From: Antedon mediterranea
Taxonomy: Eukaryota; Echinodermata; Crinoidea; Comatulida; Antedonidae
DNA: 64,000 bases
NCBI RefSeq assembly: GCF_964355755.1
Contig: NC_092678.1
Coordinates: 4,250,922 to 4,314,921 of the forward strand
Reading direction: 5' to 3'
Part shown: positions 69 through 60,400 of the stretch, one piece after another
Layout of the letters: each line of letters starts with the position of its first letter
How positions within the stretch are numbered: the stretch's first letter is position 1
Program-made: the position numbers and the translations under genes
The notes under the pieces: generated by a model
What the model was told of the DNA's origin: nothing
Seen by the model: the letters and a program-made list of their open reading frames with translations, nothing else
The model's database searches: none

Positions 69-3000
69 TTACTGACTAGACATCTTTCCTATTCTAACAC
101 ACAGTTTCCTTGCATCTAACGCCGACATACCAAGTTCCTTTAACATTTGTTCATCCAGTGCCAGTAACAGAGGCCCGTCGATGTTCTCAAGTCTGAAACT
201 AGTTGCGTGTTTTTCTAACTTGATTTCTTTTAAGAATTTTTCCACTCCTGCTACTGTGTAAGTCTGTAGTTGATCCGCACACACCTTCATGCCTGGAGTC
301 ATACCAGCGGCAGGACTGTTGTAAATATTCTGTGGCATCCCTGAAGGTGGTACTGGCAGAGGTCGATCTTCCGATATCGTATCGTAAATGTCTTCGTCTT
401 TGTTCAGTAATGAGTCGATTTCTTGTTGAAGTGAATAAATATGGTGAACATGTTCCTCATTTTTACTTTTTGCTTCCTGCAATAAAGTGTTTTAGTTAAT
501 ATTGAATGAAAGGTATTTTGAAGATTTATATCATTGTTATCTCGAAAAGAGGCCTATTTCGTCCTAGAAAAAAACTTCTTTTTACGGTATGAATTTTACT
601 TACACGCAATTCTTTCTTTAAACCTGTTTCTTGTTTTCGAAAAGCTTCAATCATCTAAAAGAGAAAGCATAGAAAGTTTGCATTATTTTATGATGCTAAA
701 TTTTACGCGTTTAAAGGAAGATCGATCATTGGAAATATTGCTTTTGCATATTTGAAAATAAAAAATAAAAGTTTAGACCTACTTGTAACTGCGAATCAAG
801 CGTACGTTTTAGCTCTTGCATCTTTTTCGTCTGACTATTTGTAATGTCATCAATTTCCTCGTAACACCTAGAAAACACAACTGTATTCATTAAATGATTG
901 AACCAGTGAGGAAAAACTGTTGATTGCTTATTGACAAAGTGACGTATGCATGCGATATGGAAATTTTTCGAACCACTACCCCGCTCTTATACCATCCGGA
1001 ACACGAGCGGTATATCATGTCAGCGACAATAAACAAACTCGCGTATTCTGACAGCAACTCTAAAAATCTACTGCGAAAGCTATCACGAATACACAAACTT
1101 GTAATATTAGGGAGCTTTAGATGTGTCGCGACGACCGACGAGCAAATCTAGGCCAATCGATGTGCCGTCGGTCGTCGCCTGGACCTATAAACCATCAAAC
1201 ATGTGTCGCGGTGAGAAGCGAGGATACACGTCCAACTATTCCCGCATGCACAATGAACTAACATGACGTAGTCAAAGGCTTCATAATATATAGAAATACT
1301 AAATATTAACTACTTACTCTAAATCATCTTCATCATCAGAAGGCGCGGTAAGTTTACTTTTATTAGTGTCTATTGGTTGTTCATAATCTAGTTCAACCGA
1401 TTGTTGTGGTGGGGGCGATGTCGGCGATTTTGCTGTCTTCAGCATCTTCGGTGATTGTGGAAGTTTGATCCCCATCATTTTACTTTTAATAATTGAAGTA
1501 TAACCCTTCTTGGGTGCTGAAGAGAACGACGGTTTATTTTCAAGTTTTGGTGGTGTCGTCACTTTTTGGTTTGGTTTAGGGGGTCGTGCAGGAGGCATAA
1601 TAGGTACATCTAGACGCTTTGGTACTTCTGGTGTAGATGTTTTGACAGTTTCGTAAAGATTTTTCCACATGTCAACTTCATTTTTTAAGTCTACAATTTG
1701 CCTTTTTATGTCCATTTCGTTCACTTTAGCCGCCTCTTGTACACACTCCTTCCCTATGAATAAAATTGAAAAATATTAAATTACAGTTACCATCTATCGA
1801 AGTGTAACAACTGAAATACGCATTACGTGATCAACAATTACGTATAATACAGTTAATTGTCCCTTAATGCAGTTGACTGTAAATGCAGTTAACTGAAAGA
1901 TAAATGTGAGAGGCAAACTTCTCATAAACAGAAGTGAGCAAACACAAGATTGGCTAAAGTTGTATGCCTCATAATGCTATTTGTAATATTTTAGTTAGAC
2001 AAAACTCAACTTAAAACTCAAATCATTTTCTTGCAAATTAAGATTGGCATATATAATATTCTAACCTTCGAAAGAGCTCAGCCAGGGCTGTAGTATTTCT
2101 TGGGCTGGTTGTGGAAACTGTCGAAATTGAGGTTGTAACGTAGATCGGCCGATTATATCTATGTGCCAAGTCGGATTGACGAGAGCGTACATAGGTGGTA
2201 GTGACTTCGCAACATGTCGAAAATTTCCTGTTGCTAACGTCATTTTAATTGGAATCTTCGAAGGGATTCCGAACACTTCTGGTTTTCCAGGTATTGTCAT
2301 GATCACGTGGTACTCCTTTTCGACACCCAGAAGTTTAATGATCTTCTCTGCTTTAATGTTTGGTCGGGTTGGATCGCTGCTTGGTATTCGAACTCTCTGA
2401 AAACACAAACAATGTTAATGCAATATTTGGGGTTGATAGAATAGGTGAAAATGACAGGACGTTCTGCGGAAAAGATATAAAATATGTAGGTCTACTCACC
2501 TGAGGGAAGTCATTTTGAATTATTTCCGTCATCGGGTGCAAATTTGCACTTAACTTTGTTGTGAAGTGCGCTGTCGTCATGCCTTGGTGTAAGTTTAAAT
2601 TATAGCCTTGTTGATTTTTTCCATAGACACACTGCAAACAAACAATAATAGAAATTTCACTGACGAATCAATTATTCGGCAATCAATGGAGACTACATCT
2701 CTGGAGCTGAAGAACATGGAACATCTGCCAAATAAGTTCACTGACATCATAGAATATATTTTTCTTTTTGTTTCTCAAGGAAATCTTGGTTTCTATATCC
2801 CACTTGACCAGAATATTGAGGGGATGACAATGAGTAATTTGTAACCATTATCGAATTATTTACATCTCATCTTAACTATAATATAAACTATAATATAAAC
2901 CGGAATACAAATGTGTATAATCAACGCTCAACAAGACTCTGCAAGCCTAGCTCCCTTCCTGAATAAGGGGTATCACCGGAATAGCAGCGTCTCATAGGAA

Positions 3001-7031: not shown

Positions 7032-10000
7032 TTAATAAATCGCGACTCGTTTGTCACGTTGTTTACTTCGAACCTTTGTCCGTGCTTTGAAAGCAGCTGC
7101 ATTATATTTCGTCTGAAAGTACAAAATGTTTCAACTTTATTTTCGCAGCTCTAAATTTTTGCAATTTGAAAAACATAGATATTAGATAATATTAAAAAAT
7201 TATGAAAAATACAATGAAAAGATGTAACGTTTTGTTATTAAGTGAAGTTGTGGTTGAGTTAATGAAAAATTATTTATGAAAAAAGTGCATTGAGTTGAGA
7301 ATAGAAACTCTAAAAAAATAAAATTCTACATACCCTTTCAAATTTGCTGCCTCTATTTGAATGAGCCACCAGGACAACTGGGGCACCAAGATCAAATATT
7401 TCACGTAGTAACTCGTTCTCTCGTAGGTGTGTGTTGATACCGGAAGATAATGCCTCACGAAAAACTCCATACTGACGTCTCCGCGACCAGCTGTCAATTT
7501 CGATGAATTCTGTGCCAAACTTTATCTGTTCAAAAGGTGCTTCATATTCCTGGATAAATAAAACATTTGAAAAAAATGTTAGAAAAACTTTTTCGACGGT
7601 AACAATTTTATGTATTTATTTTTTGTCATAATCATATCCATCTCATCTTAAAGTATGTATATGTATTAATTAACACATAGAAAAATAGTGGCCAAAATAG
7701 TTATTTCTAGTCAACTAGTCATAGCTGTTCAAAGTATGATTATCACGAACAACAACAAAGGGAATAACTTTAAGAAACATCCAATCTTTTGGAGTACTGG
7801 AGAGTGACATAGATAGTGATTGCACTGTTAATCTTTAGGGCACTCCATCCACACATGTTTGTATAATGTACGTGTACTCGCGGAAATTGTATAAAATAAT
7901 ATTATTACCTCTATTGTTCTGATGATATCTCTAAAACTGGATCTCTGTGTTCTTCTGTCTTTCTTTGCTCTGTATTTGTTGCTATCGGTGGCTAGTTCTT
8001 TTAACATACCTAAAAGGTCTTCTAAATTCTCACCAACAAATTCCTGAAAAAAAAATATAAAATTGGTACAGTTGCTATTTTTACTATAATATCATGTATC
8101 TGTCGATATTTGGCGTATCAGTACTAATTTATCTTCATTCAATTCCATCCATTTGAGTACACTGTGTGGCGTCAGCAGGATCTATTGAAATAAATCATCA
8201 TTTACACCAGACTTAATTTTAATTTCAAAACCGGAAATGTAAGAGTTTAGAATAGGGGGTAAAGAGGAAGAAAGAAATGAACTGGGAAATTACCTCATCA
8301 TTTTCTCGTTGTAGTTCGTAAAATAGAGCGATAGCTTCACCAGCTACTATTCTTAAATTTACATCTTCAATTTGCAGTAACTCAGGAAGTCTATCAAAAT
8401 GTCTGAAAAACAAATTTAATCATAACCATTATCTAGAAAGTAGAAAACTAGTAATAATGAACTAATGCTCTAGGCCCAAAAATACTCTAGAGCTAAAATA
8501 ACCTAAACATATACTCTATAAAGCTTTCCGAGAATTCTTGTGTTTTGAAAAATATTTGTGGAATGAACTTTAAAACGCATTCTGAAACTATTTATGAGTG
8601 ACCATAAGAATTTAATAATGAAACTCACGTGTATGTGATGCGTTCTATGTAAATTTGAGGTGCAATGGTTAATAGCAATGTCCATGCAGACAATGCAGCA
8701 CAATGTAATGAATGGATACCAGGACTATGCAACGGAACCGAACCATCACCCTTGAGGAAGGAAGCGCTGAACACCTGTGTCAGATTATCCATGATCTCAA
8801 TAACAACCTACAATGTAGAAAACAAATAGTGAATGGTTTTCAGATTAGACATACAGATGTTGGAAACTTATTTTTTAAAGCGGCACAGTATTACACCGGT
8901 GTTGAAAGAGCTTCACTGGCTGCCAGTGTGTAAGAGAATAACGTTTAAAATCTCGCTGATCACTTACAAAGCGTTACATGGGCTTGCCCCTGATTATATT
9001 CGCGAGCTCATTTCTGAATACATCCCGTCACGCTCTTTAAGGTCTGGTGATCAATTTCTTCTAACATTACCAAAATCATCCACTGCTTATGGTAGAAGGT
9101 CTTTTGCAGCAATAGCACCTTCATTATGGAACAAACTTCCACTCTTTGTGAGACTTGCTCCTTCAGTCAGTATTTTGAAATCACGACTGAAAGCCCATCT
9201 GTTCTCATCCGGTATTAATTAAATTATTCATTCATTCATTTATTCCTTCCCCGAAACCTTGACTCAGAAATACCGTGATGGTGTCCGGCGGGGGATAGTT
9301 TTACCTTAGTTAAGCTTTGTTACATTTTTTTTTTCACATTATTGATTGTCTCCATCCCCGAAACCTCGACTAAGAAATACCGGAATGGTGTCCGGCGGGG
9401 GATAGTTTATTACCATTAGTTAAGGTCCTATGTAAAGCACCTAGAGGGGTCAGTGATCCATTGGCGCTATATAAATATAAATTATTATTATTATTATTTT
9501 TTAAATCAAAGATCAAGAATGAATAGTTGGATTACCTGCATATCACCAGCAGCTATAAACGCACATAGTCCCAGAGTGGTGGCACACTACAAGAACAAAA
9601 TTGGGAAAATTATGCCAAATTTACTAATCAAAACTAAAGTAGAACACTTCTTATGGGACTATTCAGGGGACATCCATGGCAACTTTCATTACCGAAAAAA
9701 ATATTTTCTTTATAAATTAAAAATGGTAACGCCAAAAGGGTGCGAGTTCAATTGGGTAAACATTCACAAGACAGACTTGTTGAACAGAAAAGTAAGTGTG
9801 CATCAGTACTAATTTATCTTCATTCAATTCCATCCATTTGAGTACACTGTGTGGCGTCAGCAGGATCTATTGAAATAAATCATCATTTACACAAACAATT
9901 TCATATTGCAAACATTTTTTAATCGCAAAATAAATATTAATTGAAAACTTACAGCAGCACGCGCCTTTGGTGAAGCATTGTTATCGGCAAGAGTGGTTTG

Positions 10001-13000
10001 CAACAGCGTCCTCAACTTGTTAAACAGTTCTTCGCATTCAAGACCACCGCCAAGACTCAGGAAAACAAGGCCTGCAACATTTGCTGCAAGTGCCTGTTCA
10101 TCACCTTTACCTTTAAAATAAGAAAAACAAATTTGAATACAGTAGTACTATGCTTTGTATATGAGCATGACAATTTAGATATACAGTAGAACTAGTATGA
10201 AAACAACTTTTATTTTTGGCTTGCAAGATGGTCTTGTGGTGTAAACTACACCTTTCAGGAAAACCAGGCTTGCAACCTGCAACTGCCTGTTCATCACCTT
10301 TACCTTTAAATAGTAAAAGAAAATTTAAATACAGTAGTACTATGCTTTGAATGTGACAATTTAGATATATGACTATGAAAACAATTTTTATTATTAGATT
10401 GCAAGATGGTCTTTTGGTGTAAAATACAGCTTTTCTTGTTTTTTTATTGAGGTATTGTCAAAAATTAAAGCAAACTAGTATTGCTTATTTGTCTGGATTA
10501 GGTCCGAAGGAAACACTACAGGCAATTTGTTTGGGTCATATCCTGTATAACAACAATAGTAAGTTATGAAAATACTATTGTCTATCAATTCTGTACACAA
10601 TAGTAGACTTAGGTATAAAATCCTCAACCAACCTCCCACTACTTGTTTTCATGCCCCTAGTTGACATTACACTTCTAGATTGATACACGCTGAGATTGCT
10701 ACACATTGAGATTGTTATGTGTTTAAATTTAAAAGAATCCATGTTGCAATGTGTCTATGTTGCTACGCTCCTAGGTTGCTACACTTTACAATCATCACTC
10801 CTCTACATTTCTAGGTTGCTATGCTTTTAGATTGCTACACTTTTTAAGTTGCTACATTTCTAGGTTGCCACACTTCTGGATCGCTTCACTTTTAGATTGC
10901 TACGCTTCTAGATTGCTATGCTTTTAAACTACGCTTTTAAGTTGCTACGCTTCTAGATTGCTACACTTGCGGATTGCTTTACTTCCAGATTGCTACAATT
11001 TTAAGTTGCTAAACTTATAGATTGCTACATTTTAAAGTTGATACACTCTTAGTTTGCTACGCTTTTAAGTTACTACGCTTCTAGATTGCTACGCTTATAA
11101 ATTTCTACATTTGTAGATTGCTATACTTTTAGATTGCTACACCTTTAAGTTGCTACATTTTTAGGTTGCAACATTGCTCTGCTTCTAGATTACTACACTT
11201 TCATATTGCTACGCTTCTAGGTTGCTACATTTTAAATTGCTACGCTTCTAGATTGCTACACTTTTATAGTCTTGGTTGCTACGCTACGATTGTATTGGTC
11301 TAATAGTAATTATACAGGGATGCCTTATAATAGATGCCAACAATTTAAGCTTACCTTTTTTAATGCACCTCTCTGCGCAATCCAAGATGGTAACCTTCCT
11401 GCCGTCTACAAAGTCTTGCAGGTACTTCTTGCAAAGAGCAGCCTGAACAGCAGCTAAACACTTCTGCCTTCCTTGTGCACTGAATATCACAAATAATGTA
11501 AATAATTATAAATCCTATAATGTTTGCATGTATGATATTACATCAGTGTGTACAAATAGCCCAATGGTATAAGGTTTTTTGAAGAGTAAACTTCAAACAA
11601 GATCTGTACTATTTTTAGACTAATAATGCTTCTTGTTAGTACCTCTTTTGTGTAGTACCATCAATAGCGTCTTTCAACTTGTCTTCAAAATCTTCATTGG
11701 CAATCGATTCATCAATGCCGTCGTTAGCAGCAAGGAGGGCACCGTCATCAACGATGCTTCCTGGATCCGATATATGACTACTTGTGACACTCCCTGAGTC
11801 ATTGTCTGCCTCTTCTTCATTCATCTCATTCGCTCCACGACTTGCTCCTACAAAATAAAAACATAGCCATCGTAACATGCATAAATAACATGATATTTTT
11901 ATCGAATGGTGCATGTTATATAAAGAAATGCTTGTTTTTTTTTGCCTCAACATTAGATCAAATAAATATTGATTGTGGTTCAATCTTTTTAAAAACAATA
12001 TTAAAGGTGTATCAGTACTAGATTATCTTCATTCAATTCCATCCTTTTGAGTACACTGTGTGGCGTCAGCAGGATCTATTGAAAAAAATCATCATTTACA
12101 CCATACTATTATATTCATAATCATTTCATTTCTTTATTCGACAACAAGCGGTCCAGGGGTTGCGACAGCAACAGAGCGCCATAACACATTTGTGTCCGCA
12201 ACCCCTGTAACATACAACTTAATACAAGTTAAAAATGAATATAAAATATACAGAATATATAAAAAATTTAATTAATTTGTATTACTGTGTTACACAATTT
12301 AAAATACACCTATACAATTAAAATAAATTTAGCGTTTATCAAGCAGATATTTAACAGCAGTATTGAATTGAATTTTTACATTTCAGTACAGTAGCAGCAT
12401 TCAACTTGACGCAATAGCATGCAAGTATGTGAGTCGCATTATGTTGCTAATGTAAAGTCTAAGAACCCGAGTTAGTGTTACTGTACAGCAATTTATATAG
12501 GAATGTGTAGATGAACTTTATTTAACCTACACAAATATGGCTATCTATCCTATCTATCAATCTATCTATCTCTGAAACATAATTATGTTTACATTGTCTA
12601 TAAAGTTAATAGTTAACTATTTATATGATAAAAAATATACATGTGCATTTAATGGGGCCCCATATAATGTGCTTCAAATTGATAATGAAAACTGGGAGAA
12701 TTGATAATCTTCAATTGGATGAAAAAGAAAACAAGTTTTTTAGTGAATTGAAATGTAGTATATTAATAAAATAATTTTATGAATATGAATAAAAAATGAT
12801 TGAATTCATTAATACTTTGCAGAACTATGTAATTTGTTACAGTTTTTAATATGGTATACCATCCAAAATATTGAGCAATCAATAAAGCTAACAGATTACA
12901 GACATATTTCTCAACCATATGGAATTGTTGACTGTACATCACAAGTAATGGCCTTATGCATCTCAATCATTGGAAATAGTATTAAACAAATTAACGTTGA

Positions 13001-22400: not shown

Positions 22401-25400
22401 TGCACTGGTGAAGGGCTAGTGTTGCCTGAAAGCTCTGCTAACTTTTCTGGCCGTTTTTATTTAGCTTGCGCTTTTTTTTTTGTATCTCCATTGAGATCCA
22501 GCCACTTATTTTTTCAGTAATTTGGATTTATATTAATTAAAACAAAACCAATTTCAACAAAAATGTATTATTGCAACCACTCACCTCTTGTCGTTTGATT
22601 TGTCTCTTTGTCATTACTTCATTAATATTTCCTTGTACTGTCTCCGACCATAATCTGCTATCCCTCCTTTTTGTAGGTGTTGCCTGCGGCTTGCTGTATG
22701 GTTTTATTGTCACACTTGGTGATGGTGTGGTGTTTCGGAAACTCATCGACCTCTGTAGAAGCAATTTAGAAATTTGAAGCACATGAAAATTCTCTCGTAA
22801 TTCCACAATGGCAGGCTTTTTCACTTTACTATTATTGTTAGAAATGTTACTCGTATTGGCCATATTTTCTGAGCTGGCAGACTCGTAATAATCTCTGCAG
22901 GGCATGACTTTTGTTCGTACACATAGAGCTAACCAGCTTAGCTCCTGCCTAGCAGACTGCTTATTTGTCAATGATTACATTGGTTCATTGTTCACTGGTT
23001 AAGTGATGCAATTCAACTACAGCCGACCAATCAGAGACAGTCAGTAGGAAATATGACCTTTTCATAGAAGGACAAAGCTAATTCAGGTTTTAATAGTATT
23101 ATAGTACACTGCATGAGTAGAATACTTTATTATACTACAGCCCACCACCTATAGAAATGCAACAAAATATTTCTGTTCATATTTTTTTTCTCCCATGGGA
23201 AATATGTAAACAACGTCAGAAAGCAATTTAGGCGTAGTCACTAAATTTGTTTGTCCATAAACTTTTTGATTACTGATCATCAAATTTGTTTTCTATCTCA
23301 GCAACTAATATTTAATAATCAATTTATTATTTTTATTATGTTTTTCAAATCTACAGTAAATAATAATATACCAGAATTTTATATACTGTACCAACAATAA
23401 CATTCTTGCAAGTTTGAAATTTCTTTGATAAAAAAAGTTATACAATTTACAAATGTAAATGTTTTCAATAAAAATGTTTTAATCTGAGATGAATAATAAA
23501 AATGTGTACATATGTATAACATCAAATATATATATATCAAATTTAATGTTACTGTATATGTATTAATTCCAAGATAATAAAATCAGTAATTAAATTTAAC
23601 CAATCAAATTTCATTTTTATCATGTTGGTTAAATGACAATAAATACTAATGTATCATACATAAATAATTGATTTTAAAGTGATAAAGCTTTGATCCTAAA
23701 ATCGGCAATATGAAGACATATAACACAGCTTGAAATTACCCATCTAATAGCCATCTTGCTATGATACCTGATAAAAATAACTATCAGGTCAAGATCAGTA
23801 TTCATATCTAGTCTATACAACTAAGAACTTTGTTCCAATACTAAGAAATTGGCAGGTATAGCAATCTATTAGAGGAACAACACTGTCTTAATAGGAAGAT
23901 GCTGCTGGGAAGAAACACACAACATAATGGTTGTAGGTCATCATGGCTATTTAAAATTAAAAATGATTAAAAGTATAAATAATGAGTCTATATTATATAA
24001 ATATCTCCTTAAACATGCAAAAATAAATCATGTTGCTATTTAAAATTATTAAAGTATAAATAATAATGAAACTATATTATAATATTAAGATGAAAATCTT
24101 GTGATTATTTAAATTTGTTATTGTCTTCTTGAACTTTTGGAAACATTAACAAAAGTTTAGGTAAACATTTTAGTCTTAAAAATATGTATTTTCTTACTCT
24201 ATCTTTGCTATTTATACACTTTCGACACTATACAGTAGTAGGTTTAAAAAAAAAATAATCATGGTGTTCAATGGTAAATGAATTTGGGACCCTTCGGACC
24301 TCAAGAAAAGTCTGGCTTTGGAGAGTTTCCGGTTTTCAGAGAGTTCAGTATAAGTTGACTAGTTGTTTTGTCATAGTCTTAAGTTGCTTAATATACATAT
24401 TTTTGTATTAAATATTATTTTCTTTCTTATATTACTCTACTCAATCTTCATTATTTCCTTTACATGCTGAATCAATTTAAGTATCATCATATAATCTAAA
24501 TGAACTTTCATTTCAGCGAATATTAACTATAATGTAGGATGCTGATAGGTTGTACTGTAGATACGCACGTTGGTGTGAGGTTTCTCAGCCAATAACACGA
24601 TCAGCACTTGGGATTAGCAGGCTGCCTAACTAACGCAAACAACACATTGCAATTTAAAGAAAGGTTTCAGAATTTTGAAAAGTGTTAACTTGCCTACCTT
24701 ATTATACACCATCAATTATATCATCAAGCTACGATCAAGAGATATGGAATGACTTTCCTAACAATATGAAAACTATCAAACAATGGAATAAATTTTTCTT
24801 TGCAATGATATAAAGAGACAATGATTCATGCACATGGCCAATCAGACAACAATTTTACACATGGATGGAAATTTAAAATAAAATATTCTCATGTATATTT
24901 AACTTGTGGAGTGATGAGACTTAAATAAGTAATCTTTACATTCTTAGATGCCTTTTAAGATTACTTTTATTAAGTACTCTTTTGACACATCTTGATGCTT
25001 CACAACCACAGAGCAATGGCTTACAATTGTTTAGACAGAGTTCAATAGTAGGTAGGAGGTACGTAAAGGAAAGCAGCCAAAATATAGTGCATACTATTGC
25101 ACACCGTGTGACTCACAATCGTTCAATCAAATGACAGAAATTTTAGAGGTTTTATATAATTTCATCTATTTGTTTGTATGAAACAGATCTAATATTGTTA
25201 AATTATGCTTTAGTTGGAAAGGCAAACATGTTTTTTTGTAAACCAACTTCATATTCTTTTTAAAATGTTTGATCTACCTCTTTCAATGATGAATTTACTT
25301 GTGTTTTCAACCTTCTTTATACCATTTCTGTGACTTTTTTAGAATTATTCAAAAGCCTTCCACAAATAAAATTTAATATGCAGCAACCTTCCTCAGTAGC

Positions 25401-28400: not shown

Positions 28401-31400
28401 TTTCAGTTTTGCAGCAGTTTTGCTACGCCATTCCTGTCTTCCTATGTTTTAAAGATTGGATCTACTTTATTGAATGGAGTCACACCTTCTAATTTTCCGG
28501 CACACCTACAGTACCAGTTCAAGACCATCCCCAACCTTTCCCCACCTCACCCCCTCCCCCCCCCCCCACTCAACCACGGATTGAGTCACTCACCTTATCA
28601 ATATCATGTCTCCCACCCCGACTGAGCATTAGAAATTAGCCAAAAGAATGATTAAATCTTACCTGTAGCGCATGGCCAACTTTCTTCACAGAAGATACTG
28701 GGGATAAGAGGCTAACTAGTGATGTTCCTTTCACTAATGACCGCGCACGTCGAGTACCAGATTCCTGTAAAGTATAAATAAATTACTTATTAAAATACCT
28801 GCATTAAGCATTATTATAAACATTAAGATCATAAATATATCATATATCATTATTAAATACATAATAAAGCTATGCCTTCATTTAAAATACTGTCAATAAA
28901 TCATGTTTCTCAGAACTAACATAATTTAAATATTCCCAACAGCATGTGAAACTGAAAGAATCAACCTGGACAGATGAAACAAATATGAAAGATCAAATTG
29001 GCTAATTATACAATGTTGGTGTGTGTGTGTGTGTCTGTTGATCTATATGTGTTTGTGTATTTATATGTTTACATTTATTTATATAAGTATATAATCTTCT
29101 TACATGGCTTCCCAACATACAAGTTTCAATTGGATTTTTTTTTTTTCCAATTGATCGATACTTTCTTGGGTTTTTTTGCCTCTTTCATTTTGTATATATA
29201 ACTGAATCATCTTTTTATACATTATGATTTACTGTATTATATCTCTAAAAAAAAAAATATTTTTTTATAAAATATCAGAAATTATAATGTTTTTTACTCA
29301 AATATGAATGAAAGAAATAAATGTTTATTTGAATTGAATTGAATTACAAATTCCTAAGCATCACCCTTTAGGTGGTGATCATAAATACATTTACGTCCTT
29401 ACAACAAGGATACAATATCTGATGGTATGAATACAAATATTTCTTAGTACTTTATGAGGATAAAAGATTAGAAAGGCATTCACAGTGAGGAGTTTTCAAA
29501 TTTAAACTTTAAATATTGAACTTTTATTCTTCGACAATATACTTTATTTATGATTGATTTATATGATTTTACAAAGTTAATTCTATAAAGAAATTCTAAG
29601 TTGTTAAAACCAATTTCAGGTAAATGGCTTGAGACCATATTCCTAATAAGTTCATTAAATATTCTATATAACCAAAAAATAGGATAAATTTATTTGACAC
29701 AGTAGCAAACATGTTTTTGTATTGTGTAATAATTTGCAGTTTCTACAGGGTATTTCCCCAATATAATAATCTCAAAATTCCACGAATAGTCCCACTATAT
29801 ATCTATAGTAGCTGTAGCTTTGAGGAACTGGACCAGGTAATAATCTAGTAACTGGAATTTGAAGAATGTGTTGGCAAGGACCAATTTTATAATTATGTAT
29901 AAATAACCACAATTTACATGGGCATAAATAAACAAAAAATATTCTGTTTACCCCATAGCATACCATACATTTAAAACGCGGTTTTAAGGCCTACTTTTAA
30001 GATTCAGATATCAGGATCTTTCATAACATTTAAGTGTAAACGAGACAATAAGTGCTTTGTTCTCGCTAACGTCATTTGATCTTTTGTGATGTCATTAGAA
30101 GTTTTTTATTTAAATAATTCAAGATATATATACAAGATTGGATAATGGTTTGTAGGCACTTACGAACCTGTTAACAAAAAACCCACTCAATCCAAACAAA
30201 TATCATTATGAACAAAGTTACATTTCCCACACCACCTAAAATTTAAAAAATCTTTAGACAATTCTTTTTAAACCACACGAATTGTTTTGACCAAACTGTA
30301 TACTGGAGCTAGAAATTGCTAAGAGATTATTGTACAGAACCCTGTATATAAATGCCTAGATAGTAAACTACTGTAGAAAGTTCATTCATGTCCAGTGACT
30401 GAGAGTATATAGCACCAGTTTTACTGGTTGGATAAGTTCCGAATGTAAGGCTTACTTTGTATTCAGTCTATGATCAACAACCTAACTTTCTTTGTGTCTT
30501 GGTGGGTTAATGAAAAATTACATAATAATAACAGTTATTATTCTTCTTTGAAAGTAAACATTTCGTCAGTTAGTATGTCAATTTGAGGTCACACGGAACA
30601 GCGAGGTACTTCAATGACAGCTTAATAATCCAAACTTCCTGTACGCATTATGAATTAAGTTCTCAGAAAACTTTCCACAATGCACGACATCAGAACCTCT
30701 AATTGTTTTGTGGTGTCTGCCGTACCTGGGTCTCTGACCTCTAATTAACGTTTAACTTCGAAAAAGTGTTTAAATGTAAACTAATGTAGTTTTATCTAAC
30801 TTTTATTGCCAAAATTAAGATTACAAAGCAAACATTAGCAATAGGACATTAGATAGAGAACATAGATTGTCCTAAAGCCATTACAAATACAAACATTAGG
30901 TTGAAGATGCCGACAGGTTGTCGGCGCAACGTCATTAAAAGTGTTTTAAAGTATGTTATTTTGGTAATAAACTAAAAGACAAAATTCAATACCTGATAGA
31001 TGGGATGACCCCATTTACAAAGAAATCTAGAAACTTGCGATACCACATCTTAATTTTCTTTTCAAACCAAGTCAAAGTTTAAAAAAAATCATAAACTGGT
31101 GGTGTGGACACACTCTTAATTTTTATGTTGATACTTCTACTACTGTTTTGTGTGTTCGTCATTTAGTTTATTGGTTTTTATTTATGATGTCCCGAATTTA
31201 TCCTTGCTTCACTGCGTAAGCAGGCGTTATATCATGGACACTTTCACACAGATCAGGCTTACGACTGTGACGGTAATATTACCGCAATTTTACTAGGTCC
31301 AGAGGCGATCTAACGGAAGCCGACATTAAGGGGTTTTTACCCTTTCACACATAAGCCGGCGTTCGCGAATTACCACAATATTACAGTCTTTCAGCTCTGT

Positions 31401-49400: not shown

Positions 49401-52400
49401 GCCAATCAAAAAGTTCCATATGGAACAAATATTTAAAAAGTTTAAACAGGAAACAAAAATTAATGTTAATTTCACGATCATTGACCAACTTAACCATACT
49501 GCTGTGGAAAATATCAAAAGATGATTTTTCACATTGAAAAGTGATTTCCTGCAAATTAATGCTGCTCATCACTTGTCCAGTTGATTTTAGAAAACTTCAT
49601 TTTATTTAAAATGTTATTGGGGGTGGCTATGAAAAAAAACAATTAAATGTCAACAGCTGTTTCCAAATTTGTGGACAATAAATTTATTTATTGACTTGAC
49701 ACCAACAGGCTATCAAAATTGACCATAACTGTAATATTAAATATGTCCCGCAGATATTTTTGACATGCTTAAAGTTCCTTACATAGAGGGCACTGTTGAT
49801 ATAGGCCTATTAAAGTGTAAACAAAATGTAAGATTGATTGTTTTGATTCAAAGATTAGGACATAATGGGTTCAATCAAAGCCTTCTAATAACTACAAATA
49901 TTTGTACAAAACATACAACTTGTATTAATGTGTCATTATGACAATTTTATTAATTGATGTTTAAAGATGACTACATCCTTAAAATAAATGATGTATCAAA
50001 CTTCATTTTATAAATGACCAACGCATGTTTTAAATAAACATACAAAAAGTGGTTAATAATCTTACTCATGCACCAAAAATGTCAAAATCATCCATAAAAA
50101 AAGACATTTGGTAACTATCCATAGGAGGATACAGTCCATGATGTTGGCATAAACATGTTTCATGGTGCCTTCTTTGCAGGGTTCCAAATATTTGAAGAAT
50201 GTGACAATGAGGATTTTACAACCATTATAACTTATAAGGAACAAAACACATGACCTTCTATAAATGAAATTATCACACTATAAATCTATGTCTACACTAT
50301 CACAGCTAGTTCAACAAAAAAATGTTTGATGTGCCCAAATATGGTAGTGATATGCCCAAATATGGTAGTGATATGCCCAAATATGGTAGTGATGTGCCCA
50401 AATATGGTAGTGATATGCCCAAATATGGTAGTGATATCATATGACATCATCATGTTCACATACAGTTTGATAGTGTAAACAGAGTTAAGGAAATATGAAA
50501 TTGGTTGGAGTGGCATGAGAAACTCAATCCACAGATAAACAGGGGCACTTTTTTTATAACATTTTAAGTTCAACAAACAAGTTACTTTGACCTTGAAAAG
50601 AAAACCAGTGAACACATTCAACATCATGCTCTACTTTTTTTAACGAAAATAACATTTACTACACTCATGTGTTTTTGTAAAATTTTGACCTTTTCTAAAT
50701 CTTCAAAACACACTTAAATTTGCATTTTAAACTCACTATATTACATTAAGTATTCTGAAAAAACATGTCACAAGATAAAAACAAAATCACAAATCTATGA
50801 CAAGCTAATTTTCAGCATTTCTGAATAAAAATTTCCAAGTGGGCGTTAACATGTTTATTATTAAACTACACTAAGTTCATAGAAGATGGTGTTCACTTAT
50901 CTATGGAAATCTAGCAATCAATTAATTGAAGATAACTCATTACTACTACTTGAAGTAAATGTCAAGAAAACAAATTCATCAAAACAACTTGTTTTGCTAC
51001 TTAGCAAAATGCATACAAAATATAAGGTAGGTATTTTTCCATGGGAGGAGGAGGGGTGTTGAATGGAGGAGGAGGGGTGTTGAATGGAGGAGGAGGGGTG
51101 TTGAATGGATGAGGAGGGGTGTTGAATGGATGAGGAGGGGTGTTGAATGGATGAGGAGGGGTGTTGAATGGAGGAGGAGGGGTGTTGAATGGAGGAGGAG
51201 GGGTGTTGAATGGAGGAGGAGGGGTGTTGAATGGAGGAGGAGGGGTGTTGAATGGAGGAGGAGGGGTGTTGAATGGATGAGGAGGGGTGTTGAATGGATG
51301 AGGAGGGGTGTTGAATGGAGGAGGAGGGGTGTTGAATGGAGGAGGAGGGGTGTTGAATGGAGGAGGAGGGGTGTTGAATGGAGGAGGAGGGGAGTTGAAT
51401 GGAGGAGGAGGGGAGTTGAATGGAGGAGGAGGGGAGTTGAATGGAGGAGGAGGGGTGTTGAATGGAGGAGGAGGGGTGTTGAATGGAGGAGGAGGGGTGT
51501 TGAATGGAGGAGGAGGGGTGTTGAATGGATGAGGAGGGGTGTTGAATGGATGAGGAGGGGTGTTGAATGGAGGAGGAGGGGTGTTGAATGGAGGAGGAGG
51601 GGTGTTGAATGGAGGAGGAGGGGTGTTGAATGGAGGAGGAGGGGTGTTGAATGGAGGAGGGGTGTTGAATGGATGAGGAAGGGTGTTGAATGGATGAGGA
51701 AGGGTGTTGAATGGAGGAGGAGGGGAGTTGAATGGAGGAGGAGGGGTGTTGAATGGAGGAGGAGGGGTGTTGAATGGATGAGGAGGGGTGTTGAATGGAG
51801 GAGGAGGGGTGTTGAATGGATGAGGAGGGGTGTTGAATGGAGGAGGAGGGGTGTTGAATGGAGGAGGAGGGGTGTTGAATGGAGGAGGAGGGGTGTTGAA
51901 GGGAGGAGAAGGGGTGTTGAATGGAGGAGGAGGGGTGTTGAATGGAGGAGGAGGGGTGTTGAATGGATGAGGAGGGGTGTTGAATGGAGGAGGAGGGGAG
52001 TTGGATGAAGGTGAGGAAGTTGGATGAAGGAGTGGGATTCAAGGAAGGAGAGGGAGTTGGATGAAGGAGGGAGAGTTGGATGAAGGAGATGGGATTCAAG
52101 GAAGGAGAGGTAGTTGGATGAAGGAGAGAGGATTCAAGGAAGAAGAGGGAGTTGGATGAAGGATGGAGAGTTGGATGAAGGAGATGGGATTCAAGGAAGG
52201 AGAGGTAGTTGGATGAAGGGGATAGGATTCAAGGAAGGGGGGAGTTGGATGAAGGAGAGGTAGTTGGATGAAGGAGATGGGATTCAAGTAGGAAAGGTTG
52301 TTGGATGAAGGAGGAGAGATTCAAAGAATGAGAGAAAGTTGGATGAAGATGGGATTCAAAGAAGGAGAGGAAGTTGAATGAAGGACATGGGATTCAATGA

Positions 52401-54982
52401 AGGAGAGGTAGTTGGATGAAGGAGATTGGATTCAAGGAAGGAGAATGAAGGAGAGAGGATTCAAGGAAGAAGAGGGAGTTGGATGAAGGATGGAGAGTTG
52501 GATGAAGGAGATGGGATTCAAGGAAGGAGAGGTAGTTGGATGAAGGGGATGGGATTCAAGGAAGGGGGGGGGGAGTTGGATGAAGGAGAGGTAGTTGGAT
52601 GAAGGAGATGGGATTCAAGTAGGAGAGGTTGTTGGATGAAGGAGATGAGATTCAAAGAATGAGAGAAAGTTGGATGAAGATGGGATTCAAAGAAGGAGAG
52701 GAAGTTGAATGAAGGACATGGGATTCAATGAAGGAGAGGTAGTTGGATGAAGGAGATTGGATTCAAGGAAGGAGAATGAAGGAGATGGGATTCAATGAAG
52801 GAGAGGTAGTTGGATGAAGGAGATGGGATTCAAGATAGGAGAGGAAGTTGGATGAAGGAGTGGGATTCAAGGAAGGAGAGGGAGTTGGATAAAGGAGATT
52901 TAATTTTTAATTCAATTTTTGTATATATAAAATGTAAACTCTGAAATGAAAAATGATTGACTTACTTTCATGTTGAGACTGCAAATACTTATGTTATCGC
53001 CATCCTCGTTCCGCTTCCAACGACTTTTTGAAGGCTGAAACATAAATACAGATTTAGAGATGGTTACGGAATGCGCCAAATTTCTTTATCATGCATTTCA
53101 TTCTCTGCTACATTATATATACATCCATTTTTATCTTGTTATATAATATTTATTTGTTTAGTAAAATATGTGTGTATGTAAAAAGCCATATGAAGGATAA
53201 CATGAATGTTAATATCATTAAACGGTTCAATCATTTAACCTTTCATTACTGTACACAATGATCTAGAGTTCAAATGTGCACTTAATCATTTGACATTGCA
53301 CATAACAGTAAAGGTTTAAAGATTTGAAAAATGATATAAATGATATTAAAATGATATAATTAAATACTAAAATAAATAAAATAATAAATTGGGCATTACA
53401 AGGGTAATTCATCGCTCTCATACAAGAATAAGTATATTATTTTAGGTATAGTGACATTAAATAAGGCCAAGTACTGTAAAATTAGTTTCCTCATTCATCA
53501 AATTTTAGAGCCGCATGAACACTTTAATAAATAAATAATGTGAATGGCTGTACACATTTTCAATTGCGTATGCCCATATTTATCTTACTAATAGCCAAAT
53601 TGACTTGGCCTAATGTGACTATAGTTACTTACCTTTATGTTAAGACTACAAACACTAATATTATCATCATCACGATTACTTCTTTTTCTGGAAAATGACT
53701 ATAAAATAAATAAACTTTGTAAACTAATTAAAGAAAACAAATGATATTTGATCTAATAAAGAGAAAAAAATTACTAATAATTGTATACTAATACAGTACT
53801 AGTAAAATTAGGAACCAAGTTTGCTTTGAAATATTTTCTCAAAATTTTCTAAAAGTACATACCCCATATCGGAAGAAGCTACTTCCCTCTTCTTGTTTGG
53901 CTTTCTTCTGCAAAGAAAATACACATTTCTAAATAACAAATACAAAGTGGGGCACCACTAACTAAGGTTACATTTTCCGTGAAACGAACAATAGGTAATA
54001 TATGAGTCCTAATAGTGTAAGCCTTGTGATGTGCCCATATATGGACAGGATGATGTCATATTACTACCATATATGGAGATATCACTTCCACATTAGGGGA
54101 TATCGCTACCATATTAGGGGATATCAATACCATATATGGGTATGTTTGATAGTGTAGAAAGAGCTTAAAACTATAATATCTTTGTAAGACGGTTAAACTT
54201 GAATTGTTCATATCAAGTCCTGACCTGTTGGTTTGCTCCTGATGGACTATCACAGATATCAGGCTGATCTTCCCGTTTTCTTTTCCGATCCTAAGAAAAA
54301 GAAACAAACATTAAGTTCAATGAATAGGAAATCTAAACTTGTCAGATTTATTGTAACATTTAGTTAAGTAAAAATAAAGCAAAGCAAACTAAACAACTCA
54401 TAATCTGGTTGGAAAAAATTTGGGAATGTCCCACCCATTTCCGTCCATTCGACAAAATGATCTTACCCTCAAATCCATACTATGAACGCTGGGGCTGCGT
54501 TCTTTGAATGAATCTAGACTCTTTCTTTTCATCGCTGGTTTGGTTTTCTTTTCCACTGTGTTCTGAGTTTCTTGCTGTTTTTGAATGTCCTGTTGCCATT
54601 GGTAATGCTCTTCTCTTCGTTTCTTCATGTACTCAAGTCTATCCTTTCTGTTTTTTTCTTCCTTTGCTCTTTTCTTTTTCCGTGGCTGAAAATTAAGTTA
54701 AAAATATACTTAAAATTAGCACAATCTGGCAATAACACATGGTTTTCTTTCCAATTTTATTAAATAAGTTGATATATTTTTATCACTATTTTTGTCTCAC
54801 TTAAAAAGAATTAGTTCTTCTGATTCTACATTCCATTTTGTACTTACTGGTGGTATAGGACACACATCTTTCTCATTGTTGGTAACTGGTGAGCCATGTA
54901 GCGATGAATGAGAACCTCGGGAAGACATGGACCATAGAGAAGCTCGCGACGATGAAGGTTTCAGTGATGTCCGTTTTGACAT
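16498..54982 (-). CDS. NET1: NET1/ARHGEF3-type Rho guanine-nucleotide exchange factor (long isoform)
   Basis: Exons: 54982-54848, 54685-54467, 54290-54225, 53907-53863, 53698-53633 and/or 53034-52966, 28764-28663, 22752-22585, 21290-21131, 19708-19632, 19218-18958, 17681-17511, 17159-16973, 16670-16498. With both tandem exons the length is 632 aa; every phase matches. An in-frame stop precedes the ATG. The N-terminus has basic NLS-like clusters (PRKKKRAKEEK, DRKRKRE, SRKRSNR). Then come the family motifs TKRRDSRLWSET and IKRQEAIFELLQGEQD, and a DH domain (~287-465) with FLQRCRESPFSRKLDLWNF and RSRLVKYPLLLK. The PH domain (~490-620) has RQPIPVDQLDVEDL, GSFRGAF and SLQANDEHDKKQW. This is unmistakably NET1/ARHGEF3 (XPLN), a GEF for RhoA/RhoB; nuclear localisation via the N-terminus is known for NET1. 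It ends in QSIV, a class I PDZ-ligand pattern like vertebrate NET1 ETLV. The 24 kb intron 28765-52965 dominates the locus. Confidence 0.95.
17186..17335 (+). mobile_element. tRNA-derived SINE of a second family
   Basis: A tRNA-like head runs from GTTGGTGCAGCTGGTAGAG (box A-like) to GGTCGAATC (17236-17244, box B-like), followed by an unrelated body. Its sequence differs from the SINEs at 6.6 and 37.8 kb. It lies in a NET1-like intron in antisense orientation. Only one copy is seen in the window, so a decayed tRNA pseudogene is the alternative. Confidence 0.6.
19862..20105. repeat. Diverged tandem duplication (~122 bp)
   Basis: Two adjacent blocks share AGAGAAAATTAGTTT followed by ACCC, AAGGAG, then TAA(A/G)TC(A/G)TG and TGCAAA in the same order. 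Intronic, non-coding. Confidence 0.5.
22398..22532 (+). repeat. Dispersed repeat with hammerhead-like core, copy 1
   Basis: Shared with 58791-58962. Common blocks are AAGGGCTAGTGTTGCC, AGCTCTGCTAACTTTTCTGG, GTATCTCCATTGAGATCCAG and a terminal TTTTTCAGTAATTTG. The first part has the layout CTGRTGA, a GGGC/GCC(C/T) stem, GAAA and then GC-TCT-GC-TA, which resembles the hammerhead ribozyme core found in Penelope-like elements and retrozymes. In this copy the GAAA is intact, but the CTGATGA position reads CTGGTGA. Confidence 0.6.
22585..22905 (-). CDS. NET1: Candidate alternative first exon of the NET1-like gene (short isoform)
   Basis: The coding frame of the exon at 22752-22585 continues upstream, without a stop, through its own splice acceptor to an ATG at 22905. 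This adds 51 residues that begin MPCRDYYESASSENMANTSN. Joined to the downstream exons it would give a ~449 aa protein with intact DH and PH domains but without the basic N-terminus. CCAAT (near 23019) and ATTGG motifs lie just upstream. Vertebrate NET1 and ARHGEF3 also use alternative first exons. That this stretch is translated is inferred; an intron retained by chance is the alternative. Confidence 0.45.
22906..28662. other. NET1-like intron, AT-rich, no recognised genes
   Basis: Apart from the putative short-isoform promoter at its left end, the stretch is AT-rich with small local duplications (for example 23940-24070, sharing CTATTTAAAATTA and AGTATAAATAAT). A run of 14 C residues or so lies near 28555-28568, beside a C-rich ORF that has no family features. 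I see no exon in phase with the flanking ones. Confidence 0.5.
28765..34742. other. Left part of the 24 kb NET1-like intron
   Basis: AT-rich non-coding sequence. A (GT)n microsatellite sits at 29019-29036 and a MITE-like inverted repeat at about 31230-31413. No open frame in it resembles a known protein. Confidence 0.5.
31230..31413. mobile_element. MITE with CTTTCACACAGA termini
   Basis: The left end has CTTTCACACAGA and the right end TCTGTGTGAAAG in inverted orientation. Imperfect complementarity extends inward (ACTGTGACGGTAATATT against AATATTACAGT). An internal CCCTTTCACACA at 31339-31350 is a third related copy. CG-rich content contrasts with the flanks. No target duplication could be fixed. 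Confidence 0.65.
34743..35657. mobile_element. 915 bp inverted-repeat DNA element flanked by CACTG
   Basis: Left terminus GCCCCGTTTCTGCTGCC and right terminus GGCAGCAGAAACGGGCC form a 16/17 inverted repeat. They are immediately flanked by the 5 bp direct repeat CACTG (34738-34742 and 35658-35662), a target site duplication. Just inside both ends are runs of TATACCGTATATA palindromes. Internal partial copies of the terminus (near 34809, 34932 and 35026) suggest nested or rearranged insertion. No transposase is encoded, so it is non-autonomous. The 5 bp duplication does not by itself fix the superfamily. Confidence 0.85.
37082..37279 (-). CDS. NET1: Candidate alternative first exon of the NET1-like gene (middle isoform)
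   Basis: A 66-codon open frame starts at ATG 37279, with an in-frame TAG 12-15 bases upstream. It ends at CAAAAG followed by GTATGA, a usable donor in phase 0. The next exon (28764-28663) begins in phase 0 with GAA, so the product would read LEILHAQK then ESGTRRARSL and be about 498 aa. Residues are well mixed and protein-like (VILEEDGVCLKKVSFSNPF). Vertebrate NET1A and ARHGEF3 isoforms also splice a private first exon to the exon homologous to 28764-28663. No promoter motif was recognised. Confidence 0.55.
37728..37948 (-). mobile_element. tRNA-derived SINE, copy 2
   Basis: Minus-strand head with box A-like TGGCTTGGTGG (37928-37938) and box B-like GGTTCAAGTCC (37883-37893). The body shares AAGTCTTTGGGAGTGGAGTT (plus strand) with the copy at 6.6-6.9 kb. 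AT-rich tail at the left. Confidence 0.82.
42850..43090. repeat. ~21 bp minisatellite
   Basis: Tandem degenerate units of the form ACTCACCCTAAACTTTTCGG. Because 21 is a multiple of 3, an open frame with an LTLNFSEF-like heptad persists on the plus strand, but it has no gene context. Confidence 0.85.
44733..45384. mobile_element. 652 bp Harbinger-like MITE with TTA target duplication
   Basis: The terminal inverted repeats GACCCCATTTACACTTACG (left) and CGTAAGTGTAAATGGGGTC (right) are perfect over 19 bases and are flanked on both sides by TTA (44730-44732 and 45385-45387). A 3 bp TWA duplication is characteristic of PIF/Harbinger transposons. Subterminal GC-rich motifs (CGGCCCTGGG and relatives) are repeated in opposite orientation near both ends. 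No transposase frame is present. Confidence 0.88.
46731..46875. mobile_element. CArG-bearing MITE, copy 1 (right end truncated)
   Basis: Left end AAGCTCTGTTTACACTATCA, then two copies of CCAAATATGGTAGTGATATG and a closing ATATATGGGCACATCAAA. The right terminal repeat is missing. Related to the copies at 50285, 53995 and 61965. Confidence 0.7.
50285..50487. mobile_element. CArG-bearing MITE, copy 2, with expanded 21 bp array
   Basis: Imperfect terminal repeats (TATGTCTACACTATCACA left; TTTGATAGTGTAAACAGAG right) enclose five tandem 21 bp units, each with CCAAATATGG (first at 50335-50344). CCAAATATGG fits the SRF-binding CArG consensus CC(A/T)6GG. Non-coding, in the NET1-like intron. Confidence 0.78.
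51044..52003. repeat. G-rich 21 bp minisatellite (about 45 units)
   Basis: Nearly perfect tandem units GGAGGAGGAGGGGTGTTGAAT, with variants GGATGAGGAGGGG and GGGAGTTG. One unit near 51650 is 18 bp, a loss of one GGA triplet. Because the period is 21, long frames are open on both strands (SSSIQHP heptads on minus, RRRGVEW heptads on plus). They have no start, splice or family evidence and are treated as artefacts. Each unit has several GG/GGGG runs, so adjacent units could form G-quadruplexes on the plus strand. Lies in the NET1-like intron just downstream of the tandem exons. Confidence 0.95.
52004..52905. repeat. Higher-order purine-rich repeat array
   Basis: Degenerate purine-rich units built from GTTGGATGAAGGAGATGGGA and TTCAAGGAAGGAGAGG. 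A larger block of roughly 325 bp is duplicated (about 52127-52440 against 52451-52770, sharing GATTCAAGGAAGAAGAGG and GAAGGATGGAGAGTTGGATG). This array is contiguous with the 21 bp minisatellite and probably related to it by divergence. Confidence 0.88.
52966..53034 (-). CDS. NET1: NET1-like exon 5b (tandem paralogous exon)
   Basis: A 69 nt phase 0-0 exon encoding SRWKRNEDGDNISICSLNMK after PSK. It is paralogous to the exon at 53633-53698 (SRKRSNRDDDNISVCSLNIK). Both align to the vertebrate NET1 segment that precedes the EPSNKR-type exon. See the finding on alternative use. Confidence 0.88.
53633..53698 (-). CDS. NET1: NET1-like exon 5a (tandem paralogous exon)
   Basis: A 66 nt phase 0-0 exon encoding SFSRKRSNRDDDNISVCSLN then IK, with donor AAG-GTAAGT and acceptor TTTTATAG. 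It shares the D/N-rich NIS-x-CSLN core with exon 5b, ~600 bp downstream in transcription. It is more basic at its start (RKR) than 5b and may differ in nuclear targeting. Confidence 0.88.
53995..54171. mobile_element. CArG-bearing MITE, copy 3
   Basis: GATGTGCCCATATATGG at the left and TTTGATAGTGTAGAAAGAGCTT at the right. Internal CCATATATGG occurs near 54005, 54068 and 54130. Inserted in the intron between the NET1-like exons at 54225 and 53907. Confidence 0.7.
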
Positions 54983-55340
54983 TGGTGCAATGTTTTCTCT
55001 TTAAGCGTTTCCCTAACAATCAGGAAAAATTATATGAAGTATTAAAATCTAAATATTTTTCTACCAACTATTACCATAACTGACTTTAAATTCTATTTAG
55101 CCTTAAAATACCGATCTTCAGATAAGGAACACAATGGAGAGGTTATAGCACATCACAATCACATAACAATTTCTTTTGTTGTTTGTGAATGTTGATGATA
55201 TTATTTCCTGTTTCACCGTCTTTCTTTTTACTAGATATAAGTACCATACTTTATTAATATGCCTGGAGGTATTACATAAAACGTTCAATTCTTAAATAAA
55301 TTTTCTAATTGTTACCCTGGGATATTATTCGTTGATTGTT

Positions 55341-57469: not shown

Positions 57470-60400
57470 ATGCCTGCAATAAATGTAAGTTCTTAATGGA
57501 TTTTTGATTTTTAAACCAGTATATAATTAAATAAAGCTAAACATTTTTTCTAATTTATTCTGACAAAAATGCTAGGCTAGGCCGGCTAATAACGGCTTGC
57601 ATTGTTTGTGACTCTCTGTGGCGGAGCGGCAGCGGTTAGGTATTGTGTGGTAGGTAAAAGATAGGCCTAGCTAACTTTTATAGCCTAATGTTGTTCAAAA
57701 ACTTTTTATACATGTATAAATTGTTATTTTTACCTTTTAAACCTTATTTTAGCCACATTCAGAATACAAGAAAAAGTTTCGTTGGCATGATTCTTTTAAA
57801 TCTGCATCGTTTACGCCAACAAAACAGCAATCTGCAGAAACTGCAGGCTTGTCATCTTTTGATTTTGGTAAATATAACTTAAATATTCACACTGCACTTA
57901 TTAAGTGTATTATTAATAATATAGGCTAGTAAAGCCACATACTAAATATTAGTATTACTAGCCTATTATATATGTTATGCGCGATTTGAACGATTTGCGC
58001 AATTTAAAATTGCGCAAAAAAATCCTTGCGCAATTTGAAATTGCGCAAAGAATTCTTGCGCAATTTAAAATTGCGCAAGGATTTTTTTGCGCAATTTCAA
58101 ATTGCGCAATCAACTTGCGCAATTTCAAATTGCGCAAGAAAATCTTTGCGCAATTTTAAATTGCGCTGCACAATTTGTAAATTGCGCAAGATAGTTCTTG
58201 CGCAATATGACACCTTTGCGCAATTTGAAAACGAACTGTAAATTTTCCCATACATGGCTAGGCCTAGGCAGAGGAGTTTAAAATTTAGTATTTTATTATA
58301 TAAATAAGACCATTTCAATGAAGATAATGTTTAATACTCACTTTTTAAGTTTTTAATATTAGTTTAATAAGCTAGGCCATGTAACCTAGTCAGTATCAGT
58401 AGTCCAGACCCTAGCTAGGCTAGAGTAGTATAGCCGACCGCCCGCGCCGCGCCCGCCTGGTGGAACACCACCGCTTCGTTTTCCTTCGTCGGTTCTTCGA
58501 CGGTATGCTAACTTATAACAATATTTGCACTACTAAAATAAGGAAATGCGATATTTATCTTTAATTTTGAATCATTCTTAGAAATTACTATATAAATATG
58601 GGTGTGCATGATTTCACAATCTGTCGAAAAACCTTGCGCAATTTGCAGATTACTTGCGCAATTTAATACGTTGTTTGCGCAATTTGAAACACATGTTTCA
58701 ATTCAAATTGCGCAAGGATTTTTTTTGCGCAATTTCAAATTGCGCAAATCGTTCAAATCGCGCATAACATATATATAAAGTACAGTAAAGGCCTTGCACT
58801 GATGAAGGGCTAGTGTTGCCCGATAGCTCTGCTAACTTTTCTGGCTGTTTTACTTCTCGTTTTGATTTAGCTTTTCGCTTTTATTTTGTATCTCCATTGA
58901 GATCCAGCCACTGATACCCACAGCATTGTCAGTTTTTCAGTAATTTGCCTTTGGATTTATAAAGTAAAGGCCATGTATTGTACGGTAGTAAAGTTGTAAA
59001 CCAAATTTAATGGCTCACATTTGTATTTCCAATGCAAATAGGAAATTAATCACCAGATTACCTGAAAGATCATCAAGCTTCAAAATTAATCAAATAGGAA
59101 TTATAATACAGTAATGTATCTCTTTAATTATTTTTTCAGCCAAAACATTTGCAAAAGTACGGGAACCAGCTCTCCAACATAAGAAGCGGCCGAACTTTGA
59201 AACAACGTATAGCACTCGGATCCTTCCAGAACCGCTGGTAGGACATGAAAATGACGACCTGCAGCCTTCGCCATTGAAGTCAGCATTACGACATCCCCCT
59301 AAGGCAGCCCCTACTAGGCCTAGGAATGATTCTAATTTCAATAATAATTCAAAAACGAGGTTTGTTTGATAACTTTTACCCACTGTCCAAAAAAATTGGT
59401 TGGTAAATTTATAGTGCTTAATATTGTTTTGTTTTTTTAATTTCTTTATTAATTTAGTACTTTATCATATAATTTTAGGGTAATTTACAGCAAGAAAGAC
59501 AAGGAAAATGATCTTGCAAGTAATACACAAAACTTAGTGATGGACAAGAAAAATGAGGACAAGCAAGGAACCAGGAATGAAAAAGAAAAGAACGAGGTTA
59601 GACTCATGCTCTGACAAGTTTGATAGCAAGCTCATGCAATGCAAAACCAAATGTGTAACTGTAAATTGTCAATAATAGGAAACTCAAATACATTAACTCT
59701 CCTAAAGCGTACAACCCAAATTATGAATAGAATTTGGGTATTTAATAATGTTAAATTCCGAGCTGACTTTACTACTGACTGTAGGTGCACTCTTCTGGGT
59801 GGTTTCCTCTTCTAAAGTTTCTATCTGGAGTTTTAGGGTAGTATTCAATTCATCTAATAGTAATAATGTGTTATAATAATTTACATAAACTTCAGGTGAA
59901 CAGAGCTATGCAATTCCAGGCTGGAATAAGAGCACCACAATCAGGAGGTCCCAAATACAACACAGAGTATCAGCGACAGTTTGCTTGGAAAAAACCAATA
60001 GTTAAACAATCACCATTAATTGCTGCTGAACAAGTAAGGGTTTTTTATTGTCTTTATTGTAGTCAACTTTTTACTTGAACCAGTTAAGCACGGTTTACCA
60101 ACAAACCAACCTGAGCAAACTAGTGATAACAATAACTCAGTCACTTCCAGAATTCTTAAACTTTTCCTAAACTTTTCAGATGGTTTATAGTTCAAATACC
60201 AACATATCCCCATATGTTCCTGACAAAATTCAAAGAAGCAGTGAATACCAAAACCAATTTCAACCCTGGAAGATACAGGGTCCCAAAAATGAAAGAGATA
60301 AACTGAAGAAAATTGCAGAACGGGAAATCAAGGCAAAGTACAAAATTAGAAATAAGGTTTGTACTCTATAACATATATTCAAGTTGTTAAGTACTTTGAT

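Follow-up and report, generated by a model that had tools for sequence, protein, structure and literature searches.

A tandem pair of short homologous exons in the N-terminal tail of a NET1/ARHGEF3-type RhoGEF gene of Antedon mediterranea, with both copies apparently kept as protein

The locus

The crinoid Antedon mediterranea carries, on contig NC_092678.1 of assembly GCF_964355755.1 (positions 4,250,922 to 4,314,921 of the forward strand; this whole stretch of 64,000 nucleotides (nt) is referred to as the window, and all positions below are counted from its first letter), a gene for a RhoGEF protein related to vertebrate NET1 and ARHGEF3. The gene was assembled on the minus strand of the window from 14 coding exons running from 54982 to 16498; all 13 of its introns are of the GT-AG type, the frame is open throughout, and a TGA stop codon at 16498 closes a predicted protein of 632 amino acids. 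Within the part encoding the N-terminal tail lie two short exons, E5a (53633–53698, minus strand, 66 nt) and E5b (52966–53034, minus strand, 69 nt), the peptides of which are homologous. The origin of this pair, its conservation, and the way in which it may be spliced are the subject of this report.

Two homologous exons in tandem

E5a is bounded as tag/TCA...AAG/gtaagt and encodes SFSRKRSNRDDDNISVCSLNIK, and E5b, separated from it by an intron of 598 nt (53035–53632, minus strand), is bounded as cag/CCT...AAA/gtaagt and encodes PSKSRWKRNEDGDNISICSLNMK. Both exons are phase 0-0, as are the exons that flank the pair, E4 and E6. The two peptides align with a BLOSUM62 local score of 71, the maximum of 2,000 shuffles being 47 (0 of 2,000 as good), in a series of 28 exon-pair similarity tests that is uncorrected. 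The alignment extends over 20 residues, 13 of which are identical, with different codons used at 8 of these 13, and nucleotide identity amounts to 35 of 60 positions. E5a and E5b are adjacent, significantly similar, and of compatible phase—that is, they show what tandem exon duplication calls for—and the pair is a new example of this known kind of event.

No third copy turned up in the window as scanned on both strands, with the 24-kb intron downstream of E5b included: the two copies scored 110 and 102 and the next best place 29, and 20 single-base shuffles made from the minus strand reached 36 at best. Likewise, searching the genome (354 Mb in 18 contigs) with the 45-amino-acid pair returned only two candidates, namely E5a and E5b. 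Exon E3 (54225–54290, minus strand; 66 nt, phase 0-0; DRKRKREDQPDICDSPSGANQQ), which begins DRKRKRE, was considered as a third copy and is not supported as such, although its exclusion is not clean: E3 scored 25 against E5a (60 of 2,000 shuffles as good), 19 against E5b (473 of 2,000), and 28 against a human NET1 segment (28 of 2,000), with the last alignment consisting of a short KRKR run. The pair lies outside the Pfam domains of the protein, and its motif pair found no match among solved structures at E-values up to 10.

Age and constraint

By the Nei–Gojobori method, nonsynonymous divergence between the two exons (dN) is 0.31 over the 20 aligned codons, falling to 0.11 when only the last 12 are counted, and synonymous divergence (dS) is not estimable (returned as −1), which fits sequences that separated long ago and are saturated with changes. 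Because dS is not estimable, and because identical residues are so often specified by different codons, the duplication is judged to be old, and E5a and E5b are best read as the products of an ancient tandem duplication that affected a single short exon of the N-terminal part.

When the alignment, after it had been seen, was divided into two halves, a conserved half of 13 codons (DDDNISVCSLNIK and DGDNISICSLNMK; consensus DxDNIS[VI]CSLN[IM]K) was found to have 10 of 13 residues identical and 7 of its 9 base differences at third positions (P 0.008), and a basic half of seven codons (SRKRSNR and SRWKRNE) to have 3 of 7 residues identical and 7 of 16 differences at third positions (P 0.26). Over the whole 20 codons, third positions account for 14 of 25 differences (P 0.016). 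Since the differences in the conserved half are mainly at third positions, both copies look to have been kept as protein. The better-conserved part of the segment is the acidic/hydrophobic half, DxDNIS[VI]CSLN[IM]K, and not the basic one, which is a hint for NET1 biology. Whole-protein scans for relatives in collections of genome contigs and of viral contigs confirmed 0 of 65 and 0 of 18 pattern matches, respectively.

The host gene and its surroundings

In Pfam, the 632-residue protein matches RhoGEF (7.5e-39) and then a PH domain (SOS1_NGEF_PH, 8.9e-14), and its best matches in the PDB are ARHGEF3 (2z0q, 412.8 bits) and NET1 (4xh9, 396.4 bits; 3eo2, 240.9 bits), with the next family, intersectin, at 87.2 bits. 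The match to 2z0q covers residues 274–617, corresponding to the DH and PH domains, and this order of domains, closest to NET1 and ARHGEF3, places the protein in their family. A genome-wide search with the protein gave 19 places, 13 of them inside this gene and the remaining six weak (E 0.0125 or worse), so that only one NET1/ARHGEF3-type locus was found in the genome. Since one such gene was found, we infer that it is a relative of both vertebrate genes, or of their ancestor.

The coding part of E1 occupies 54848–54982 on the minus strand, with the ATG presumably at 54982, an in-frame TAA a few codons upstream, and an exon start that may be at 55012. It is followed on the same strand by E2 (54467–54685; 219 nt, phase 0-0), E3, E4 (53863–53907; 45 nt, phase 0-0; KKAKQEEGSSFFRYG), the E5a/E5b pair, and, after an intron of 24,201 nt, E6 (28663–28764; 102 nt, phase 0-0; beginning ESGTRRARSLVKGTSLVSLLSPV). 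The region preceding the DH domain begins with E7 (22585–22752, minus strand), and the DH and PH domains are encoded by E8–E13 (21290–21131, 19708–19632, 19218–18958, 17681–17511, 17159–16973, and 16670–16498, minus strand). All of the first eight introns (those before E2, E3, E4, E5a, E5b, E6, E7, and E8) are phase 0, as are 11 of 13 in the whole gene. Skipping any one of the internal exons that encode the N-terminal tail would therefore keep the frame, and the matching phase of E5a and E5b is no special clue.

A preliminary description of this region had assigned the two exons, with these coordinates, lengths, splice sites, phases, and homology, to a NET1-like gene, and had pointed out that including either, both, or neither of them keeps the frame. 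All of this is borne out by the alignment score, by the PDB matches together with the RhoGEF and PH domains, and by exon lengths divisible by three between phase 0-0 flanks, with the qualification that phase 0 is general in this N-terminal region.

Upstream of the E7 acceptor, the frame is open for 74 codons (22974–22753, minus strand) and contains in-frame ATGs, with CCAAT-like boxes just upstream. This stretch could be an alternative first exon, leading to a short form of the protein lacking the basic tail; the codon-usage score there is negative (−5.8), and an alternative promoter just upstream of E7 is kept as a remark only.

Exons of other genes lie on both sides. An MDM1-family exon (59842–60078, plus strand; Pfam PF15501, 3.3e-13) is found upstream of the NET1-type gene and divergent from it, and IFRD-family exons (9887–10147 and 11284–11505, minus strand; Pfam PF05004) are found downstream. 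A SAM-domain exon of another gene (69–491, minus strand; Pfam SAM_1, 6.4e-10) lies at the window edge. An open frame at 8833–9222 (plus strand) has no Pfam match at E-values up to 0.01; we take it to resemble the terminal part of a reverse transcriptase encoded by a retrotransposon. Elsewhere in the genome, let-7 gave a match above the cut-off (62.7 bits, with 57 of 63,355 candidates scored), which suggests a bilaterian, and innexin gave two (34.1 and 31.2 bits). There was no mir-2 match among the 60 of 131,623 candidates scored, and no connexin match in a search that raised no candidate anywhere and is therefore uninformative.

Splicing of the exon pair

Additive inclusion of the doubled short motif, with E5a and E5b both present in the transcript, is considered the probable arrangement. 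The default transcript would then be E4-E5a-E5b-E6, and the protein would contain, in its basic N-terminal tail, two copies of the motif [KR-rich]-acidic-IS[VI]CSLN[IM]K, probably serving as a short binding or regulatory motif. Scored as matches to the nine positions of MAG/GTRAGT, the donor of E5a reaches 9 of 9 and that of E5b 8 of 9, the range over the 13 donors of the gene being 6–9. The acceptor of E5b is cag, with 12 of 19 pyrimidines and an AG-free stretch of 47 nt.

The preliminary description had offered mutually exclusive splicing as the other option. Transcripts would then contain E5a or E5b, never both, altering the N-terminal behavior of the exchange factor. No frame, steric, U12, or branch-point arrangement that would enforce such a choice is visible at the locus. 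There is no frame lock, with 66 and 69 nt both divisible by three, and no steric crowding, with an intervening intron of 598 nt against a threshold of about 50 nt. There is likewise no U2/U12 incompatibility: all 13 introns are GT-AG, and none of the donors of E4, E5a, and E5b (gtatgt, gtaagt, and gtaagt, respectively) is of U12 type by inspection against the U12 donor consensus. The AG-free zone before E5b is only 47 nt long, and the branch point is therefore placed near the acceptor, not in the distant layout of the OGDH kind. The predicted fold of the E5a-E5b intron is no stronger than those of its shuffles.

A human survey of mutually exclusive exons counted, among 629 clusters, 377 (60%) in which exon length is not a multiple of three, 57 (9%) with potential steric crowding below 50 bp, and five (0.79%) with U2/U12 incompatibility, and described many similar neighboring exons as not mutually exclusive (PMC5740500). 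In OGDH, according to PMC7969005, exclusion is enforced by branch points located near the donor on their upstream side. A later study of human events describes tandem duplication of exons as common, but mutually exclusive use of the resulting copies as not common (PMC9741552). The same study, reporting that predicted-disordered residues are poorly conserved between known exchangeable exons, would provide an indirect argument against exclusion for copies that lie outside the Pfam domains (PMC9741552).

Several observations in this and the next two paragraphs weigh against simple inclusion of both exons. Five intron-intron pairings were compared with 100 shuffles each, the intron after E5b being represented by its first 400 or 130 nt only. 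The numbers of shuffles that equaled or exceeded the observed strength were 90, 85, 29, 89, and 4, the last for the E3-E4 intron paired with the one between E5a and E5b, a pairing stronger than 96 of 100 shuffles. In addition, 17 inverted-repeat pairs were listed in 52900–54000, with no control. By the counts of PMC5740500, at least 190 of 629 human clusters (what is left after subtracting 377, 57, and 5) have none of the three visible mechanisms, and exclusion by intronic enhancers or silencers, or mediated by proteins, would leave no sequence signature of the tested kinds; the absence of such mechanisms here therefore lowers the case for mutual exclusion and does not decide it. E5a and E5b are moreover homologous neighbors of the same phase, differing by 3 nt in length, which would make them a candidate pair by the prediction rules of that survey (PMC5740500), and the copies are old and apparently constrained. 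Taken together with the missing mechanisms, these points leave mutually exclusive splicing improbable, and of the two options offered by the preliminary description it is additive use that we infer to be the favored one.

The acceptor of E5a looks weak, with 11 of 19 pyrimidines, the lowest count in the gene (tied with E4 and E12), and with an AG 14 nt upstream, which makes its AG-free stretch the shortest of the 13 acceptors. As judged by these features, the site would fit partial skipping. Owing to this acceptor, an optional or occasionally skipped copy, if there is one, would more likely be E5a than E5b. The pair might alternatively be spliced as a regulated cassette, with one exon optional (either E5a, in view of its acceptor, or E5b, which lies beside a minisatellite) and with one or two motifs per transcript. 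Every combination of the exons keeps the frame, the next intron is very long, and the minisatellite (51044–52899, 1,856 bp) starts 66 nt past the donor of E5b. This C/U-rich array has a composition of 50% C, 30% T, and 1% G on the strand of the NET1 transcript; it is made up of 21-nt units over 51044–52011, followed by longer composite repeats including a 331-nt unit, and could be a binding site for pyrimidine- or poly(C)-binding splicing factors. However, both donors are near consensus, and intronic minisatellites need not affect splicing, and regulated cassette use is regarded as possible but less probable than additive use. A more specific proposal, that such proteins bound to the array set the inclusion of E5b, and that variation in array length between individuals changes the motif dose and thus NET1-type localization or activity, is speculative and very improbable.

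The codon-usage scores are low as well, at −0.7 for E5a and 4.2 for E5b, although the score also misses E9 (−2.0) and E11 (−1.9), both of them coding exons. The slightly negative value of E5a and its weak-looking acceptor are what might be expected if one copy were a relic without function, now left out of the mature transcript. Such a relic is scarcely credible, however, given that both copies are open, have near-consensus donors, and show third-position bias in the conserved half.

The basic tail and nuclear localization

The N-terminus of NET1 is described as containing multiple nuclear localization signals (PMC2386254) or two of them (PMC3044157), the deletion of which shifts NET1 to the cytoplasm (PMC3044755). 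On the basis of the RKR cluster, which differs between E5a and E5b, the preliminary description had proposed that the choice of exon tunes nuclear sequestration. Of the matches to the strict motif K[KR]x[KR], four lie in E2, which holds most of the basic clusters (KKKR, KRAK, KKRR, and KKTK), one in E3 (in its KRKR cluster), and one in E4. The motif is absent from E1, E5a, E5b, E6, and E7, a result that holds for the strict motif only, looser or bipartite signals not having been searched, and E5a contains an RKR run. As the basic clusters sit in E2–E4, strong clusters remain whichever of E5a and E5b is used, and nuclear import would be carried mainly by these upstream exons. Together with the better conservation of the other half of the segment, this distribution goes against the proposal, and tuning of nuclear sequestration by the choice between E5a and E5b is unlikely. 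The human NET1 segment that aligns with the two exons is presumed to hold the second human nuclear localization signal.

A leucine-rich, export-like pattern (class 2 definition) was seen in both copies, at residues 169 and 192. It is not claimed as a signal, since shuffles reach it and the copies are not independent: among 2,000 shuffles, 311 had one match or more within the N-terminal 236 residues, and 28 had two or more.

Comparison with known systems

Mutually exclusive tandem exons such as OGDH 4a/4b and those of FYN resemble E5a and E5b in their adjacency, homology, and similar length and phase, and in being old and apparently constrained. Unlike in those systems, no exclusion mechanism is visible here among the frame, steric, U12, and branch-point tests. 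If splicing did choose between the copies, a RhoA exchange factor would be subject to a splice switch, a kind of control of which no mention was found in the passages available from a small sample of NET1 literature.

ARHGEF3 (also called XPLN) provides the best PDB match over the DH-PH part (2z0q), which is slightly closer to ARHGEF3 (412.8 bits) than to NET1 (396.4 bits). ARHGEF3 is not known to have the KRKR-type tail segment present in this gene.

The long isoform of vertebrate NET1 (ARHGEF8) combines, like the protein predicted here, RhoGEF and PH domains with a long basic tail at its N-terminus. Its human segment scores 55 against E5a (0 of 2,000 shuffles as good) and 42 against E5b (1 of 2,000). 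The crinoid gene differs from its vertebrate relative in having two tandem copies of the segment, against a single copy in human NET1. If both copies are used together, the pair would be a further instance in which exon duplication has multiplied a short motif of the tail.

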